A stretch of DNA of 64,000 bases, taken from the NCBI RefSeq assembly GCF_000025305.1, contig NC_013740.1, positions 1,488,001-1,552,000 of the forward strand, in the 5' to 3' direction. Below are positions 5,100-50,085 of the stretch, in pieces. The notes below the pieces were generated by a model that was not told where the DNA came from, made no database searches, and saw nothing but the letters and a program-made list of their open reading frames with translations. This DNA is from Acidaminococcus fermentans DSM 20731. Its GTDB lineage: Bacteria; Bacillota; Negativicutes; Acidaminococcales; Acidaminococcaceae. A program made the position numbers and the translations under genes. Within the stretch, counting starts at the first letter, position 1. Every line of letters starts with the position of its first letter.

Positions 5100-6368
5100 T
5101 CAGGGATAGAAAGGGAACAGGATGGGCAGCAGGATGAGAGAGACGATGTAGCCGATGATCACCATGGGAATGCCGGCCTTCACGTAATCGTTGAAGGTGT
5201 ATCCCCCGGGGGCGAACACCATCATGTTGGCAGGCATGCCAATGGGGGTGGCAAAAGCCAGGGAAGCGCCGATGACCGTGGCTACGATCACCGCCTTGGG
5301 GTCCGCCCCCATGGCTTCGGAAATATTCACGGAAATGGGGATCAGCAGGGCCGCCGTACCAAAGTTGCTCATGAAGTTGGTCATGACGCAGCTGAGCAGC
5401 AGAATCACCGCCAAAAGCAGCAGCGGGGAAGCGTTGGATCCCAGGAGACCAATCACCCCGTCGGCCACCGCCTTGCCGGCGCCGGTTTTGGCCAGAGCCT
5501 TGGCCAGGGCCAGGGTGCCACCGTACACGAACAGGGTCTGGAGGTCGATGGACTGGTACGCCTGTTTTTCACTGATGACACCCAGGGTGACCAGCACAAG
5601 GGCACCGATGCAGCCGGACAGGTAGAATTTGATGCCGATCTGTTTTTCAAAGATCATTGCGATGATGGTAAGCACCATGACGATCAGGGAAACTTTTTGT
5701 TTCCAGGCCGGGACCTGGGAGAAATCCGGCGTCTTGTCGTAGATGCTTTCCCCGGTCTTCCCCTGCCGCTGCGGCAGGAACCGGTAACCTACCGTGGCAA
5801 AGAAGGCAGTGCCGATCAGCAGGATGGGAAAGCCCACGAAACCGTATTCAAAGAAGCTGATGTCCTGGCCGATGGCTTCCAGGGCGCTTTTCCCCAGCAG
5901 GTTCCCGGGAGCCCCGATGATGGACAGGTTACCGCCCATGGCGGCGGCGAAGATCAGGGGCAGCAGGAGCCGGGACCGGGCAAAGCCGGATTTGGAAGCG
6001 ATGCCGATGACCACCGGGATCAGGATGGCGGCAGTGCCCGTGTTGGACAGGAAGCCGCTCATGATGCCGGTGACCAGCATCACTGCCACAATCAGCTGCC
6101 GTTCGGAGCTGGCGAACCGGGTAACGATGCCCCCCACCTTGTTGGCCATGCCCGTTTCAAAAAAGGCACCGCCGATGATGAACATGGCCACGAACAGGAT
6201 CAGGTTGTTGTCCACAAAGCCGGCAAAGGCATCCTTGGGACTCAGCACGCCGGTGAGCACCAGCACCATCAGGGCCAGCATGGACGTGACGGCCAGGGGA
6301 AGTTTTTCGGTGACGAACAGGATAATGACACAGACCAGAAGGGTCAGGGTAATGGCAATGGGTGACAT
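5100..6368 (-). CDS. SLC13/ArsB-type permease, probable C4-dicarboxylate transporter
   Basis: A 422-residue polytopic membrane protein with 10-12 hydrophobic segments. Motifs of the SLC13/CitM/ArsB superfamily are present: SNTGTAAILIPVVIGIA, GGNLSIIGAPGNLLG, SNFGTAALLIPI and ATPIGMPANMMVFAPGGY. Co-transcription with fumarase suggests uptake or exchange of malate, fumarate or a related acid. The substrate is inferred only from the neighbourhood. The ATG has GGAGG about 11 nt upstream. Confidence 0.85.
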   Translation of the reverse strand: MSPIAITLTLLVCVIILFVTEKLPLAVTSMLALMVLVLTGVLSPKDAFAGFVDNNLILFVAMFIIGGAFFETGMANKVGGIVTRFASSERQLIVAVMLVTGIMSGFLSNTGTAAILIPVVIGIASKSGFARSRLLLPLIFAAAMGGNLSIIGAPGNLLGKSALEAIGQDISFFEYGFVGFPILLIGTAFFATVGYRFLPQRQGKTGESIYDKTPDFSQVPAWKQKVSLIVMVLTIIAMIFEKQIGIKFYLSGCIGALVLVTLGVISEKQAYQSIDLQTLFVYGGTLALAKALAKTGAGKAVADGVIGLLGSNASPLLLLAVILLLSCVMTNFMSNFGTAALLIPISVNISEAMGADPKAVIVATVIGASLAFATPIGMPANMMVFAPGGYTFNDYVKAGIPMVIIGYIVSLILLPILFPFYP

Positions 6369-6536: not shown

Positions 6537-6573
6537 TACAAAACCGGGGGCGTGAATGAATTCACACCCCCGG
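6537..6573 (-). terminator. Terminator-like hairpin in the gap downstream of the GntR gene
   Basis: A 14-bp near-perfect stem from CCGGGGGCGTGAAT paired with the downstream strand, followed on the minus strand by TTTTGTATTT. It lies about 150 bp after the GntR stop codon, beyond the heptamer-bounded element. Confidence 0.65.
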
Positions 6574-6725
6574 TCACGGGCCACGAGTCACAGGTCGCGG
6601 GCCTGGACGTTTAAATCGTTTGTTCTTTTTCTATATAATGACACGAGAAAACCGTACGGAATAGAAAACCGGACATTGTATCTGCTCCAACAAGCCCGCG
6701 GCTCACGACTCGGGGCTCGTGACTA
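6572..6725. repeat. Intergenic element bounded by inverted heptamer blocks
   Basis: Left block 6572-6603 reads GGTCACG, GGCCACG, AGTCACA, GGTCGCG, GGCC. The right block 6694-6725, read on the minus strand, gives AGTCACG, AGCCCCG, AGTCGTG, AGCCGCG, GGC. The two blocks are therefore inverted copies of the same 7-bp-phased motif, enclosing about 90 bp of A+T-richer sequence. The right block begins at the GntR gene's TAG stop codon. Confidence 0.7.
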
Positions 6726-7715
6726 AAGCTTTTTCCCCACCTGCTCCCGGTAGTTGGTGAGGATGTTTTCCATGCTCCGTTCCATGTGTTCGTCCATGAG
6801 CTTCCGGGCCTTTTCCGGATCATGGGCCCGGAGGGCTTCCATCAGCTGCCGGTGTTCAAAGAAGGAGATCTTGGCATAATCGGTTTCCGTCATCAGGAAC
6901 CCCAGGGAAAGCCCGTTCCACAGGCTGGCCAGAATCCGGGCCAGTTTGGGATTGTCCGCCGCCTCCCACAGGGCCATATGGAAGCTTTCGTTGTAGTGCT
7001 TGTAGTCCCCGTACCGGTGCTCTTCCATGCACTTTTCCATGCCGGCATAGACCTGTTCCACTTCCGTCAGGTCACTGCCGGGCCGGGCGGCCAGGGCGGC
7101 GGCTTCCCGTTCCAGGATTTCCCGGACGGCAAAATGGTCCCGGATGGCCTTTTCATCCATTCCCAGCACCACCGCTCCCTTGTTGGGCCGCAGCTTCACC
7201 AGTCCCTGGCTGGCCAGAAGCTGGAGGGCTTCCCGGACCGGAGTGGCGGAGACCCCCATGTGCCGGGCGGTCTCTTCCAGGGTCAGCACACTGCCTTCCG
7301 GGATCTCCCGGCGGAGGATGGCTTTCCGCAGATAGGAAGCCACCTGTTCCCGGGCCGGCAGGAGATGGATCTTCCCCACGTTTTTCATCGGGGTGTCCCC
7401 GGCTACCCGGTACACCGGAACAGGGGACGCCGGCGGTTCCTGGGCTTCCGGCACCGGGGCCTGTCCCGTTTTCCGGTTCCCCAGCAGCTCCCGGGCCTCC
7501 TCCGCCACCACCATGTGCCGGTTGCTGAGCCGGGTCACCAGCCCTTCCAGCAGCAGGGTCTGGAGGGCCTCCCGGATGGGCATCCGGGATACGCCGTAGG
7601 TCCTGGCCAGTTCCACCTGCTTCAGTTCCGTCCCCGGTTCCAGATCACCGGAGGCGATCCGGTTCCGCAGGGACTGGCAGATCAGTTCCTGGGTGGATTT
7701 CTGCAGGGTCACCAT
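6723..7715 (-). CDS. GntR-family regulator with two winged-HTH domains and FCD domain
   Basis: A 330-residue protein with an unusual order. A first GntR winged HTH spans residues 5-72 (ELARTYGVSRMPIREALQ, LLLEGLVTRL) and a linker 73-118 follows. A second, complete GntR winged HTH spans 122-185 (ETARHMGVSATPVREALQ, LASQGLVKLRPNKGA). A C-terminal all-helical FCD ligand domain follows from about 190 (REILEREAAALAA, ESFHMALWEAADNP, EHRQLMEAL). FCD regulators usually bind organic acids. The ATG at 7715 follows AAAGGAGG. It lies 20 bp downstream of lepA, so it may be co-transcribed. Control of the adjacent permease-fumarase operon is inferred from proximity and the candidate operator. Confidence 0.88.
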   Translation of the reverse strand: MVTLQKSTQELICQSLRNRIASGDLEPGTELKQVELARTYGVSRMPIREALQTLLLEGLVTRLSNRHMVVAEEARELLGNRKTGQAPVPEAQEPPASPVPVYRVAGDTPMKNVGKIHLLPAREQVASYLRKAILRREIPEGSVLTLEETARHMGVSATPVREALQLLASQGLVKLRPNKGAVVLGMDEKAIRDHFAVREILEREAAALAARPGSDLTEVEQVYAGMEKCMEEHRYGDYKHYNESFHMALWEAADNPKLARILASLWNGLSLGFLMTETDYAKISFFEHRQLMEALRAHDPEKARKLMDEHMERSMENILTNYREQVGKKL

Positions 7716-20385: not shown

Positions 20386-20580
20386 AAGGGGTAAGAGTCA
20401 ATGGCCAGTCGACAATGGCCCAATGTTAAATTTGCAGACAAATTTTTGAATATGCAGAACCTTTGGATCAAATAACCTCTCAGTTTACTCTCGATTCTGG
20501 TTCTATAGAATCAGAAGGATTCGCCCATCCAGGCTAATCCTGTCCTAAGGCTTCCGACTTCAGACTCCTGACTCCAGACA
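20383..20580. repeat. Intergenic element bounded by heptamer blocks
   Basis: The left block (20383-20424) has GTCAAGG, GGTAAGA, GTCAATG, GCCAGTC, GACAATG, GCCC. The right block (20551-20580) has CTTCCGA, CTTCAGA, CTCCTGA, CTCCAGA, which on the minus strand begins GTCTGGA, GTCAGGA, GTCTGAA, GTCGGAA. The blocks are thus inverted with respect to each other around an A+T-rich centre that includes GATTCTGGTTCTATAGAATC. It sits exactly between the two convergent terminators of the PBP1A and carboxyltransferase genes. No gene seen. Confidence 0.65.
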
Positions 20581-20612
20581 AGGGACTGTTGCTCATGCAA
20601 CAGTCCCTTTCC
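20580..20612 (-). terminator. Hairpin downstream of the carboxyltransferase gene
   Basis: AGGGACTGTTG pairs with CAACAGTCCCT around a CTCATG loop, 28 nt after the stop codon. On the minus strand the following tract (TGTCTGG) is poor in T, so efficiency is uncertain. Confidence 0.55.
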
Positions 20613-26681: not shown

Positions 26682-26737
26682 CTCTTCCCTCTTCACTCTG
26701 CACTCTTCACTCTGCACTCTTCACTCTTCTCTCATCC
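26682..26737. repeat. Heptamer repeat block at the symporter 3' end
   Basis: Eight 7-bp units on the plus strand: CTCTTCC, CTCTTCA, CTCTGCA, CTCTTCA, CTCTGCA, CTCTTCA, CTCTTCT, CTCATCC. The symporter's last codons (RRVKSAE) and its TGA stop are encoded by this block, so the repeat has become, or replaced, the coding tail. Confidence 0.8.
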
Positions 26738-44385: not shown

Positions 44386-44421
44386 GAGGGTATTGCACGG
44401 AACGTGCCATATCCTCTTGCT

Positions 44422-44456
44422 GTCAGCGGTCAACTGTCAACGGTCAACGGCCCATG
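44422..44456. repeat. Heptamer repeat block
   Basis: Units GTCAGCG, GTCAACT, GTCAACG, GTCAACG, then GCCCATGG. It lies between the alaX hairpin and the rpsB promoter. The tail CGGCCCATGG parallels CGGCCGATGG at the block near 47946. Confidence 0.75.
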
Positions 44457-47910: not shown

Positions 47911-47946
47911 AAAAAAGACTGTCGCTTCCGCGGCAGTCTTTTTTTG
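47911..47946 (+). terminator. ilvE terminator
   Basis: AAAAAAGACTGTCG pairs with CGGCAGTCTTTTTTT around a TTCCG loop, 12 nt after the stop codon. Confidence 0.9.
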
Positions 47947-47973
47947 TCGGCGGTCAACGGTCAGCGGCCGATG
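47946..47973. repeat. Heptamer repeat block
   Basis: GTCGGCG, GTCAACG, GTCAGCG, GCCGATG, directly after the ilvE terminator. CAGCGGCCGATGGAAA here recurs on the minus strand at about 20606-20622. Confidence 0.7.
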
Positions 47974-49996: not shown

Positions 49997-50085
49997 CAAA
50001 ACCTTTTGGCAAACCTGGAGAAATCCAGCGACGCAAAGCTAACAGGGCCTGTAAAATGGCAGCCAGCTGCACAGTGTTTTTCCTC
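49997..50085 (+). promoter_or_regulatory. Cyclic di-GMP-I (GEMM) riboswitch
   Basis: The leader contains GGCAAACCTGGAGAAATCCA followed by GCGACGCAAAGC, TAACAGGGCCTGT and GGCAGCCAGC. These are the GEMM-I hallmarks: the GGCAAACC start, the GAAA-type tetraloop stem with its GACGCAAAGC receptor region, and the CAGGGCC and GGCAGC strands. It lies between a good promoter and a terminator ahead of a diguanylate cyclase gene, so the cyclase product can control its own gene. Confidence 0.9.

Follow-up and report, generated by a model that had tools for sequence, protein, structure and literature searches.

Among the short repeats of bacteria, the heptanucleotide repeats of cyanobacteria went by the older name of STRR. 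Heptad arrays as a kind are already known from cyanobacteria, Xanthomonas and the Beggiatoaceae, as described in the respective papers (PMC4476775, PMC4692102, PMC4679880). The P6b stem of the Nostoc trnL intron carries degenerate heptanucleotides of the type TDNGATT or NNTGAGT (PMC4476775). The GGGNATC heptamers of Xanthomonas and Nostoc are enriched in non-coding DNA, where four units are preferred; many lie within 50 bp of a stop codon, they are under-represented between divergent ORFs and are described as generally not associated with known mobile elements (PMC4692102). A paper on the TAACTGA repeats of the Beggiatoaceae introduces 7-nt units as the most abundant class in most genomes and mentions polymerase slippage as a proposed explanation (PMC4679880).

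Here we describe a heptad-flanked element in a window of 64,000 nucleotides (G000:C1:1488001-1552000) from the genome of Acidaminococcus fermentans VR4T (G000; one contig, 2,329,769 bases). The element follows the gene of a GntR/FCD regulator and precedes the terminator-like hairpin of this gene, beyond which a citrate/DASS-type transporter gene is situated; it belongs to a dispersed repeat family to which we give the name F1. The features of the locus are:

6572..6599, + strand: left arm, four degenerate heptads (GGTCACG 6572-6578, GGCCACG 6579-6585, AGTCACA 6586-6592, GGTCGCG 6593-6599)
6599..6702, + strand: F1 core of 104 bp, delimited by alignment A1, beginning GGGCCTGGACG and finishing CCAACAAGCCCGCGGC; overlaps the innermost heptads
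6697..6724, - strand: right arm, four heptads (AGTCACG 6724-6718, AGCCCCG 6717-6711, AGTCGTG 6710-6704, AGCCGCG 6703-6697)
6723..6725, - strand (reads 6725-6723): TAG stop of the GntR gene, within the outer right heptad
6723..7715, - strand: GntR/FCD-type regulator gene, 330 aa (PF00392, 2.7e-31; PF07729, 3e-23); its 3' end abuts the element
6542..6575, - strand: terminator-like hairpin with 15 pairs, a loop of 4 and the tail TTGTATTTAT; shares a few bases with the first heptad
5100..6368, - strand: citrate/DASS-type transporter gene (PF03600, 9.1e-71), downstream, its upstream region left of the terminator

The hairpin at 6542-6575 would, from its predicted structure, terminate the GntR transcript. 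The heptads that a first-pass annotation had picked out on both sides were found in place as inverted arrays, and the GntR TAG overlaps the outermost right heptad, in agreement with its remark that the right block starts there; the enclosed stretch, put at about 90 bp, measures 97 bp. The adjacent hairpin formed no part of that annotation's proposal. A repeat search placed the arms at 6573-6605 and 6691-6723 (33 nt, 76% complementary). The inverted-repeat score of this copy (15.4) was reached in none of 500 Markov-1 shuffles (maximum, 10.8), whereas four of 500 shuffles equalled its lag-7 score of 14/21, which is weaker evidence from a single copy. The organisation itself is beyond doubt, because it recurs in 17 full-length copies in the same genome.

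Comparison with the described heptads reveals partial likenesses. As in the Nostoc trnL stem, degenerate 7-nt units form both stem arms, the number of units varies and two alternative unit types occur per locus; the trnL stem is, however, one intron locus, whereas the Acidaminococcus units are GTC-anchored, belong to a member of the Bacillota and bracket dispersed families next to terminators (PMC4476775). GGGNATC repeats share with F1 the heptamer size, the non-coding location, the preference for four units, the proximity to stop codons and the scarcity between divergent genes, yet they are direct arrays that form G-quadruplexes in vitro and F1 consists of inverted arrays with a conserved core (PMC4692102). 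The TAACTGA repeats are likewise intergenic heptamer arrays but have a single exact unit, lie mainly upstream of start codons, lack a core and include almost no inverted sets (PMC4679880).

Like MITEs and other miniature bacterial repeats, F1 is short, non-coding, intergenic and multicopy (17, 15 and 2 full-length copies in three genomes), with terminal inverted repeats that are imperfect, as the 76% complementarity of the window copy illustrates; unlike in MITEs, these ends are repeat arrays instead of fixed terminal repeats. One Porphyromonas MITE reportedly contains a minisatellite. Internally repetitive inverted arms are also a feature of Foldback and Galileo of Drosophila, a structural analogy only: these are eukaryotic elements with long arms, and the Galileo transposase is of the P-element type. 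REP/BIME sequences with their RAYT and the intergenic mosaic elements of Neisseria are intergenic or 3'-end mosaics of short repeats and cores, which F1 resembles in location and build; the single Y1 transposase found in VR4T has unrelated ends, and we know of no motif that F1 has in common with either group. Literature searches that paired the genus or the Negativicutes with heptamers, intergenic repeats or MITEs yielded no paper on these elements among the matches listed, with most subscription journals outside the coverage. In the available portion of the VR4 genome paper, the word "intergenic" is absent and the sole mention of "repeat" is a CRISPR repeat count (PMC3035267). As far as these searches go, the F1 family is undescribed.

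Copies of F1 and their place among genes

With the window stretch as query, blastn gave at least 19 matches in VR4T (19 of 57 candidate places scored), at least 20 in A. massiliensis Marseille-P2828 (G003) and at least 19, mostly short, in 'A. fermentans' WCA-389-WT-5B (G007), and none in the six other congeners or in 32 genomes outside the genus. A sequence-only model, R1, was built from 31 copies (alignment A1); at a row threshold of E<=0.01 it returned 28 rows in G000, 20 in G003, five in G007, a weak one in congener G005 and none in the five other congeners. Taking E<1e-20 as our own cut for a full-length copy, we counted 17 in G000, 15 in G003 and two in G007, 34 altogether; the weaker rows are truncated or diverged copies, or arms read backwards. 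When two mismatches were tolerated, triplets of the unit RGTCNCG were found 44+46 times and the reversed pattern, used as a control, 1+0 times. Under the stricter limit of one mismatch, such triplets occurred in five of 250 genomes of the class, every one in Acidaminococcus. The exact 3'-end signature CAACAAGCCCGCGACYCRNGRC was found in six stretches among 84,980 species genomes (five from A. massiliensis and one from WCA-389-WT-5B), in a scan that possibly excluded the source genome of the window and its close relatives. A 17-base end signature also appears in nine viral contigs, where R1 gave three matches that scored no higher than 17.2 bits, full copies scoring 76-117; we take these as chance. 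An origin from a phage or plasmid was rejected, as neither the 50,697 phage records nor the 72,556 plasmid records contained a match.

Read by eye, a typical full copy comprises a hairpin, the left heptads, GAGCCTGGACGTT..., a core of about 105 bp, ...CACCAACAAGCCCGCGAC, the right heptads and a second hairpin. The arms mostly consist of 3-4 degenerate RGTCNCG heptads. Four heptads per side are commonest (left arm in 15 and right arm in 13 of 30 copies), but the number ranges from 0 to 5 on the left and from 1 to 4 on the right, and the two counts are uncorrelated (r=0.02). The core has a mean pairwise identity of 77% and varies in length through indels, not in steps of three. Heptad loci that are coreless also exist (L034, L035, L081, L083, L086, L088 and L089, among others), as do loci whose cores are alike in little beyond their ends (L065/L073, L068/L072 and L066/L071/L075). 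Foldback elements are built of a variable middle flanked by inverted arms that consist of short tandem units, and F1, the F2 family described below and the diverged cores L065/L068/L066 share this arm design. At L066, L071 and L075, the orthologous site in G000, G003 and G007, a promoter-like TATAAT stands between the arms together with a GAAC-N4-GTTC box, which we take to be LexA-type, just upstream of a start codon.

Copies of F1 typically sit at gene 3' ends beside intrinsic terminators. With neighbour orientation assigned by our own codon-score gene caller, trained on five window genes, 16 of the 34 full copies lie between convergent and 17 between codirectional genes, none lies between divergent genes and one is uncalled on one side; each of the 33 copies for which both neighbours could be called has the 3' end of a gene on one side or both. 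Divergent intergenic regions may be empty because insertions into promoters were lost. One of the associated hairpins, hairpin A (GGGTGTGAA...TTCACACCC), occurs 53 times in G000 as an exact pattern. Only nine of these occurrences have an R1 row within 300 bp and 12 have an RGTCNCG triplet within 100 bp, counts that miss variant stems. It seems to have arrived with F1 at locus L028; against its being a part of F1, the window locus has a terminator at the same place in G003, G005 and G007. Exact GGGTGTGAA stems number 53 in G000, 44 in G005, 26 in G007 and 19 in G003, with none in five congeners. The terminator stems of the junctions in these four genomes comprise a few stereotyped sequences (GGGTGTGAA, GGGCTGTTGC, GGTGCTGC), and the type differs between species at the same place. 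At L094 and L238 of G003, terminator-type hairpins are interrupted by an insertion-sequence-like end (TGATGTGACTCCAAAAAGTTAGACC).

The junctions of relatives reveal both occupied and empty sites. The GntR junction was matched in seven of eight congeners and R1 finds F1 in none of the seven, the G001 contig ending 184 bases past the match. At this junction, G003 carries a GGTCTCG palindrome that is short and has no core, G005 and G007 lack heptads and keep a hairpin with the same tail, and G001 and G002 have other seven-phased arrays (by eye). Visual inspection also revealed a hairpin followed by the tail TTTGTATTTATGATA in G003, G005 and G007, whose GntR orthologues end at other nearby stops. 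Twelve further full copies, preselected for having no orthologue in our lists, were compared in the same three genomes, and F1 was absent from all 30 orthologous junctions examined (of 36 possible); the sole R1 match among them, L238, is a separate copy on the other side of the gene. Ten of the 30 carry another seven-phased array by eye, two of them of only two units. The first-pass annotation had staked its proposal on further copies in the genome and empty sites in relatives, and both are there: 17 full-length copies in G000, of which 13 (the window copy and the 12 preselected ones) have no F1 at the relatives' junctions examined.

Individual sites are instructive. At L028, the junction in G007 reads stop, A run and terminator, and G000 has a hairpin and F1 between the A run and the terminator. 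At L030, F1 is found in G000, F2 in G003 and F3, a third family, in G005, with neither in G007. Three full copies of G000 (L024, L026 and L029) are present at the same sites in G003, where the orthologue of a fourth (L022) is coreless. The coreless orthologues L022/L052 and L043/L058/L085 can be read as core deletion instead of insertion.

Heptad arrays and families beyond F1

Two more families carry arms like those of F1. In F2, the arms consist of GGTCTCG units and the core, about 170 bp long, contains two terminator-like hairpins; its blastn matches, many of them partial, number 15 in G000, 18 in G003, 38 in G007, five in G005 and one in G001, with none in the other four genomes. Two F2 copies in G003 are 99% identical over 196 bp and have unrelated outer flanks. 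A separate palindromic repeat (CCGTAGGGGC...GCCCCTACGG) is nested in the F2 copies at L079, L095 and L097. The arms of F3 are of the GTCACTA type; this family neighbours F1 at three loci (L023, L026 and L037) and a coreless array at a fourth (L089).

In VR4, degenerate arrays with a period of exactly seven, mostly GTC-anchored, occur about once per 7-8 kb and often beside hairpins. Arrays of this period number 25 per 200 kb in G000, 30 in G002, 14 in G005, 13 in G003 and none in G008, with none in 120 kb of G004 and one in 80 kb of G001. Shuffled sequences, a small control with much noise, gave estimates of 0 in four genomes and 6.7 in G008. Periods 8, 10 and 11 yield 0-3 arrays across genomes (0-1 in G000), and the 10, 27 and 7 arrays with periods of 5, 6 and 9 in G000 are read as coding repeats. 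The anchor is GTC/GAC in 28 of the 41 arrays listed for G000 (by eye), and period 7 accounts for 22 GTC loci there, whereas periods 8, 10 and 11 account for 1, 1 and 0. No GTC excess was seen in G008, G004 or G001, and other trinucleotides are commonest in G002, the one genome in which plain lag-7 autocorrelation is clear (0.286). The window itself holds four more GTC-anchored seven-phased arrays, of other unit types (e.g., TGTCAGCGGTCAACTGTCAACGGTCAACGG), and a tandem array without the anchor:

840-864, + strand: GTC array
20549-20587, - strand: GTC array
44421-44452, + strand: GTC array
47945-47969, + strand: GTC array
26682-26733: tandem array of CTCTTCA, 7.4 units, period 7, without GTC anchor

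By eye, the arrays at 20.5 and 44.4 kb directly adjoin hairpins. A hairpin lies within 45 nt upstream of 20 of 38 GTC arrays in G000 (264 kb) versus 13 of 300 random non-coding positions, and of seven of 14 in G003 (13 of 300 random), three of 13 in G005 (11 of 300) and three of eight in G002 (22 of 300). Little reliance can be placed on the count of GTC arrays in non-coding DNA (16 of 38), since intergenic stretches are hidden by long ORFs that are spurious. An inverted partner was found for nine of 41 arrays in G000, four of 46 in G002, four of 26 in G003 and six of 18 in G005, and most arrays outside F1 and F2 have none detected, by a test so insensitive that it missed one known F1 arm. Other heptad types, AGTGGTT and GGCATTT, occur in G002 (L151, 5460-5675 and 16015-16187), where near-identical inverted copies of one such element lie about 10.5 kb apart.

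Transcript structure, mobility and 3'-end function

The first-pass annotation had offered two readings, a mobile element or a structured RNA, and the element does fold well: the predicted fold has a z of -6.1 when the terminator is included and of -5.8 when it is left out. On a longer 30-copy alignment, alifold predicts the arm stem at -51.8 kcal/mol, with its pairs kept in 18-30 of the 30 copies. Both the strong fold and the complementary consensus arms follow from the arms being inverted, and the fold lends no support to a regulatory RNA (a small RNA or a 3'-UTR element with the heptad arms as its long stem), which we regard as very improbable. The arms are not co-adapted, since pairing with the own arm averages -36.7 kcal/mol against -37.7 for swapped arms (permutation p=0.86, 30 copies), and covariation in the core is almost nil (over 31 copies, RNAalifold gives an energy of -4.2, its covariation term being -0.2, and two of ten pairs have a double change). 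Rfam contained no family at threshold for the element (window copy and six loci, E up to 5), the best sub-threshold match being BjrC68 (24.5 of 39 bits, E 0.014) at the right end of L041 and its hairpin. These results, with the uncorrelated arm lengths, led us to reject a structured RNA; the varying presence of arms and core also speaks against it. Elsewhere in the window, the Rfam scan identified a ZMP/ZTP riboswitch (745-823, - strand) and a c-di-GMP-I riboswitch (49998-50074, + strand). The window copy has a promoter match, TTTAAA-18-TATAAT, but the copies share no promoter position on either strand, which is a further point against an RNA gene, and scores of at least 9/12 were reached in six of 30 copies on the + strand and five of 30 on the - strand, compared to 9% of shuffles. 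We thus rejected an embedded promoter as a general feature: few copies score, positions differ and the promoter-like core of L066/L071/L075 is not general.

The mobile half of the proposal fared better, upheld by the copies, the empty junctions and the near-identical F2 copies. We estimate at about two in three the probability that F1 is a non-autonomous foldback-type (MITE-like) intergenic element inserted at gene 3' ends, a mobility that we infer from its distribution. F1 would have inserted between a stop codon and its intrinsic terminator, or between two terminators, its copies would have been moved by an enzyme acting in trans and its heptad arms may grow and shrink through 7-nt slippage. 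In the window copy, the right arm supplies the GntR stop codon, and the element lies in the GntR 3' untranslated region ahead of the terminator. Overall, F1 resembles a degraded mobile element more closely than it does a gene for an RNA. No target-site duplication could be made out among the A runs and G runs of terminators that flank F1. A search of G000 with PF01797 found no transposase with F1-like ends; 12 further heptad loci of G000 were examined over about 100-300 bp of flank. The single Y1 transposase (137 aa) has a different, unrelated end hairpin, and its flanks do not resemble the repeat as those of a RAYT do; the frame after it is presumably TnpB-like. Against the mobile reading, three of the 17 G000 copies occupy the same sites in G003.

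Shared sites also revealed unexpected conservation. Four orthologous pairs were compared, three of them G000-G003 and the fourth G003-G007. Their cores agree at 386 of 416 sites (92.8%), compared to 1250 of 1850 third codon positions (67.6%) and 3472 of 3700 first and second positions at the same loci (core versus third positions, Fisher p=3e-30 with sites treated as independent), a contrast inflated by the choice of pairs in which both members are recognisable and of the least conserved frame as the third position. Neighbouring terminator stretches are intermediate (about 0.78-0.89). Even in columns that vary among paralogues (37% paralogue agreement), orthologues agree at 33 of 37. The first member of each pair resembles its orthologue more than it does any other copy, and independent insertion at the paired sites is therefore unlikely. 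Judging by the sequences, conservation of this kind should not occur in a dead insert and counts against F1 as one; it gives a hint of selection on retained F1 copies after insertion.

The same conservation, including that at paralogue-variable columns, favours a cis-acting 3'-end element in which core and arms would be selected as an insulator, an exonuclease barrier or a termination aid, with mobility incidental or ancient. So do the location of all 33 callable full copies at a gene 3' end and the hairpins upstream of about half of the GTC arrays in G000 and G003, although these accompany only three of 13 arrays in G005 and three of eight in G002. We nevertheless consider this explanation unlikely: F1 is absent from the relatives' junctions examined for 13 of 17 G000 copies, and the core comparison draws on only four preselected pairs and is somewhat biased by the least conserved frame. 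Tandem growth by polymerase slippage beside terminators, purely local and with inversion as a by-product, would involve no moving unit. It could account for the prominence of period 7 over periods 8, 10 and 11 in G000 and for the differing heptad types that species exhibit at one junction, as at L033 and the GntR site (by eye), but a common core of 105 bp in 34 full copies, most at unrelated loci, and the near-identical F2 copies leave it barely credible. Local growth is largely refuted for F1 and F2, and coreless arrays may still fit it. We consider it improbable that a genus-wide and nearly sequence-independent process lays arrays in 7-nt register, GTC-anchored in several species, beside terminators, in which case F1, F2 and F3 would be different cores captured between such arrays, later selected at transcript 3' ends.

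Period seven in Acidaminococcus

It is not obvious why a period of seven should be so frequent among the short repeats of bacteria. In Acidaminococcus, dense and degenerate heptads, often GTC-anchored, form the arms of more than one dispersed family, and the arrays turn over between species at the same terminator. Several species are available for comparison at individual sites, which makes the competing explanations (slippage, transposition and selection at 3' ends) testable in this genus. Independently of this, the shared cores merit attention for a conservation that was not expected.
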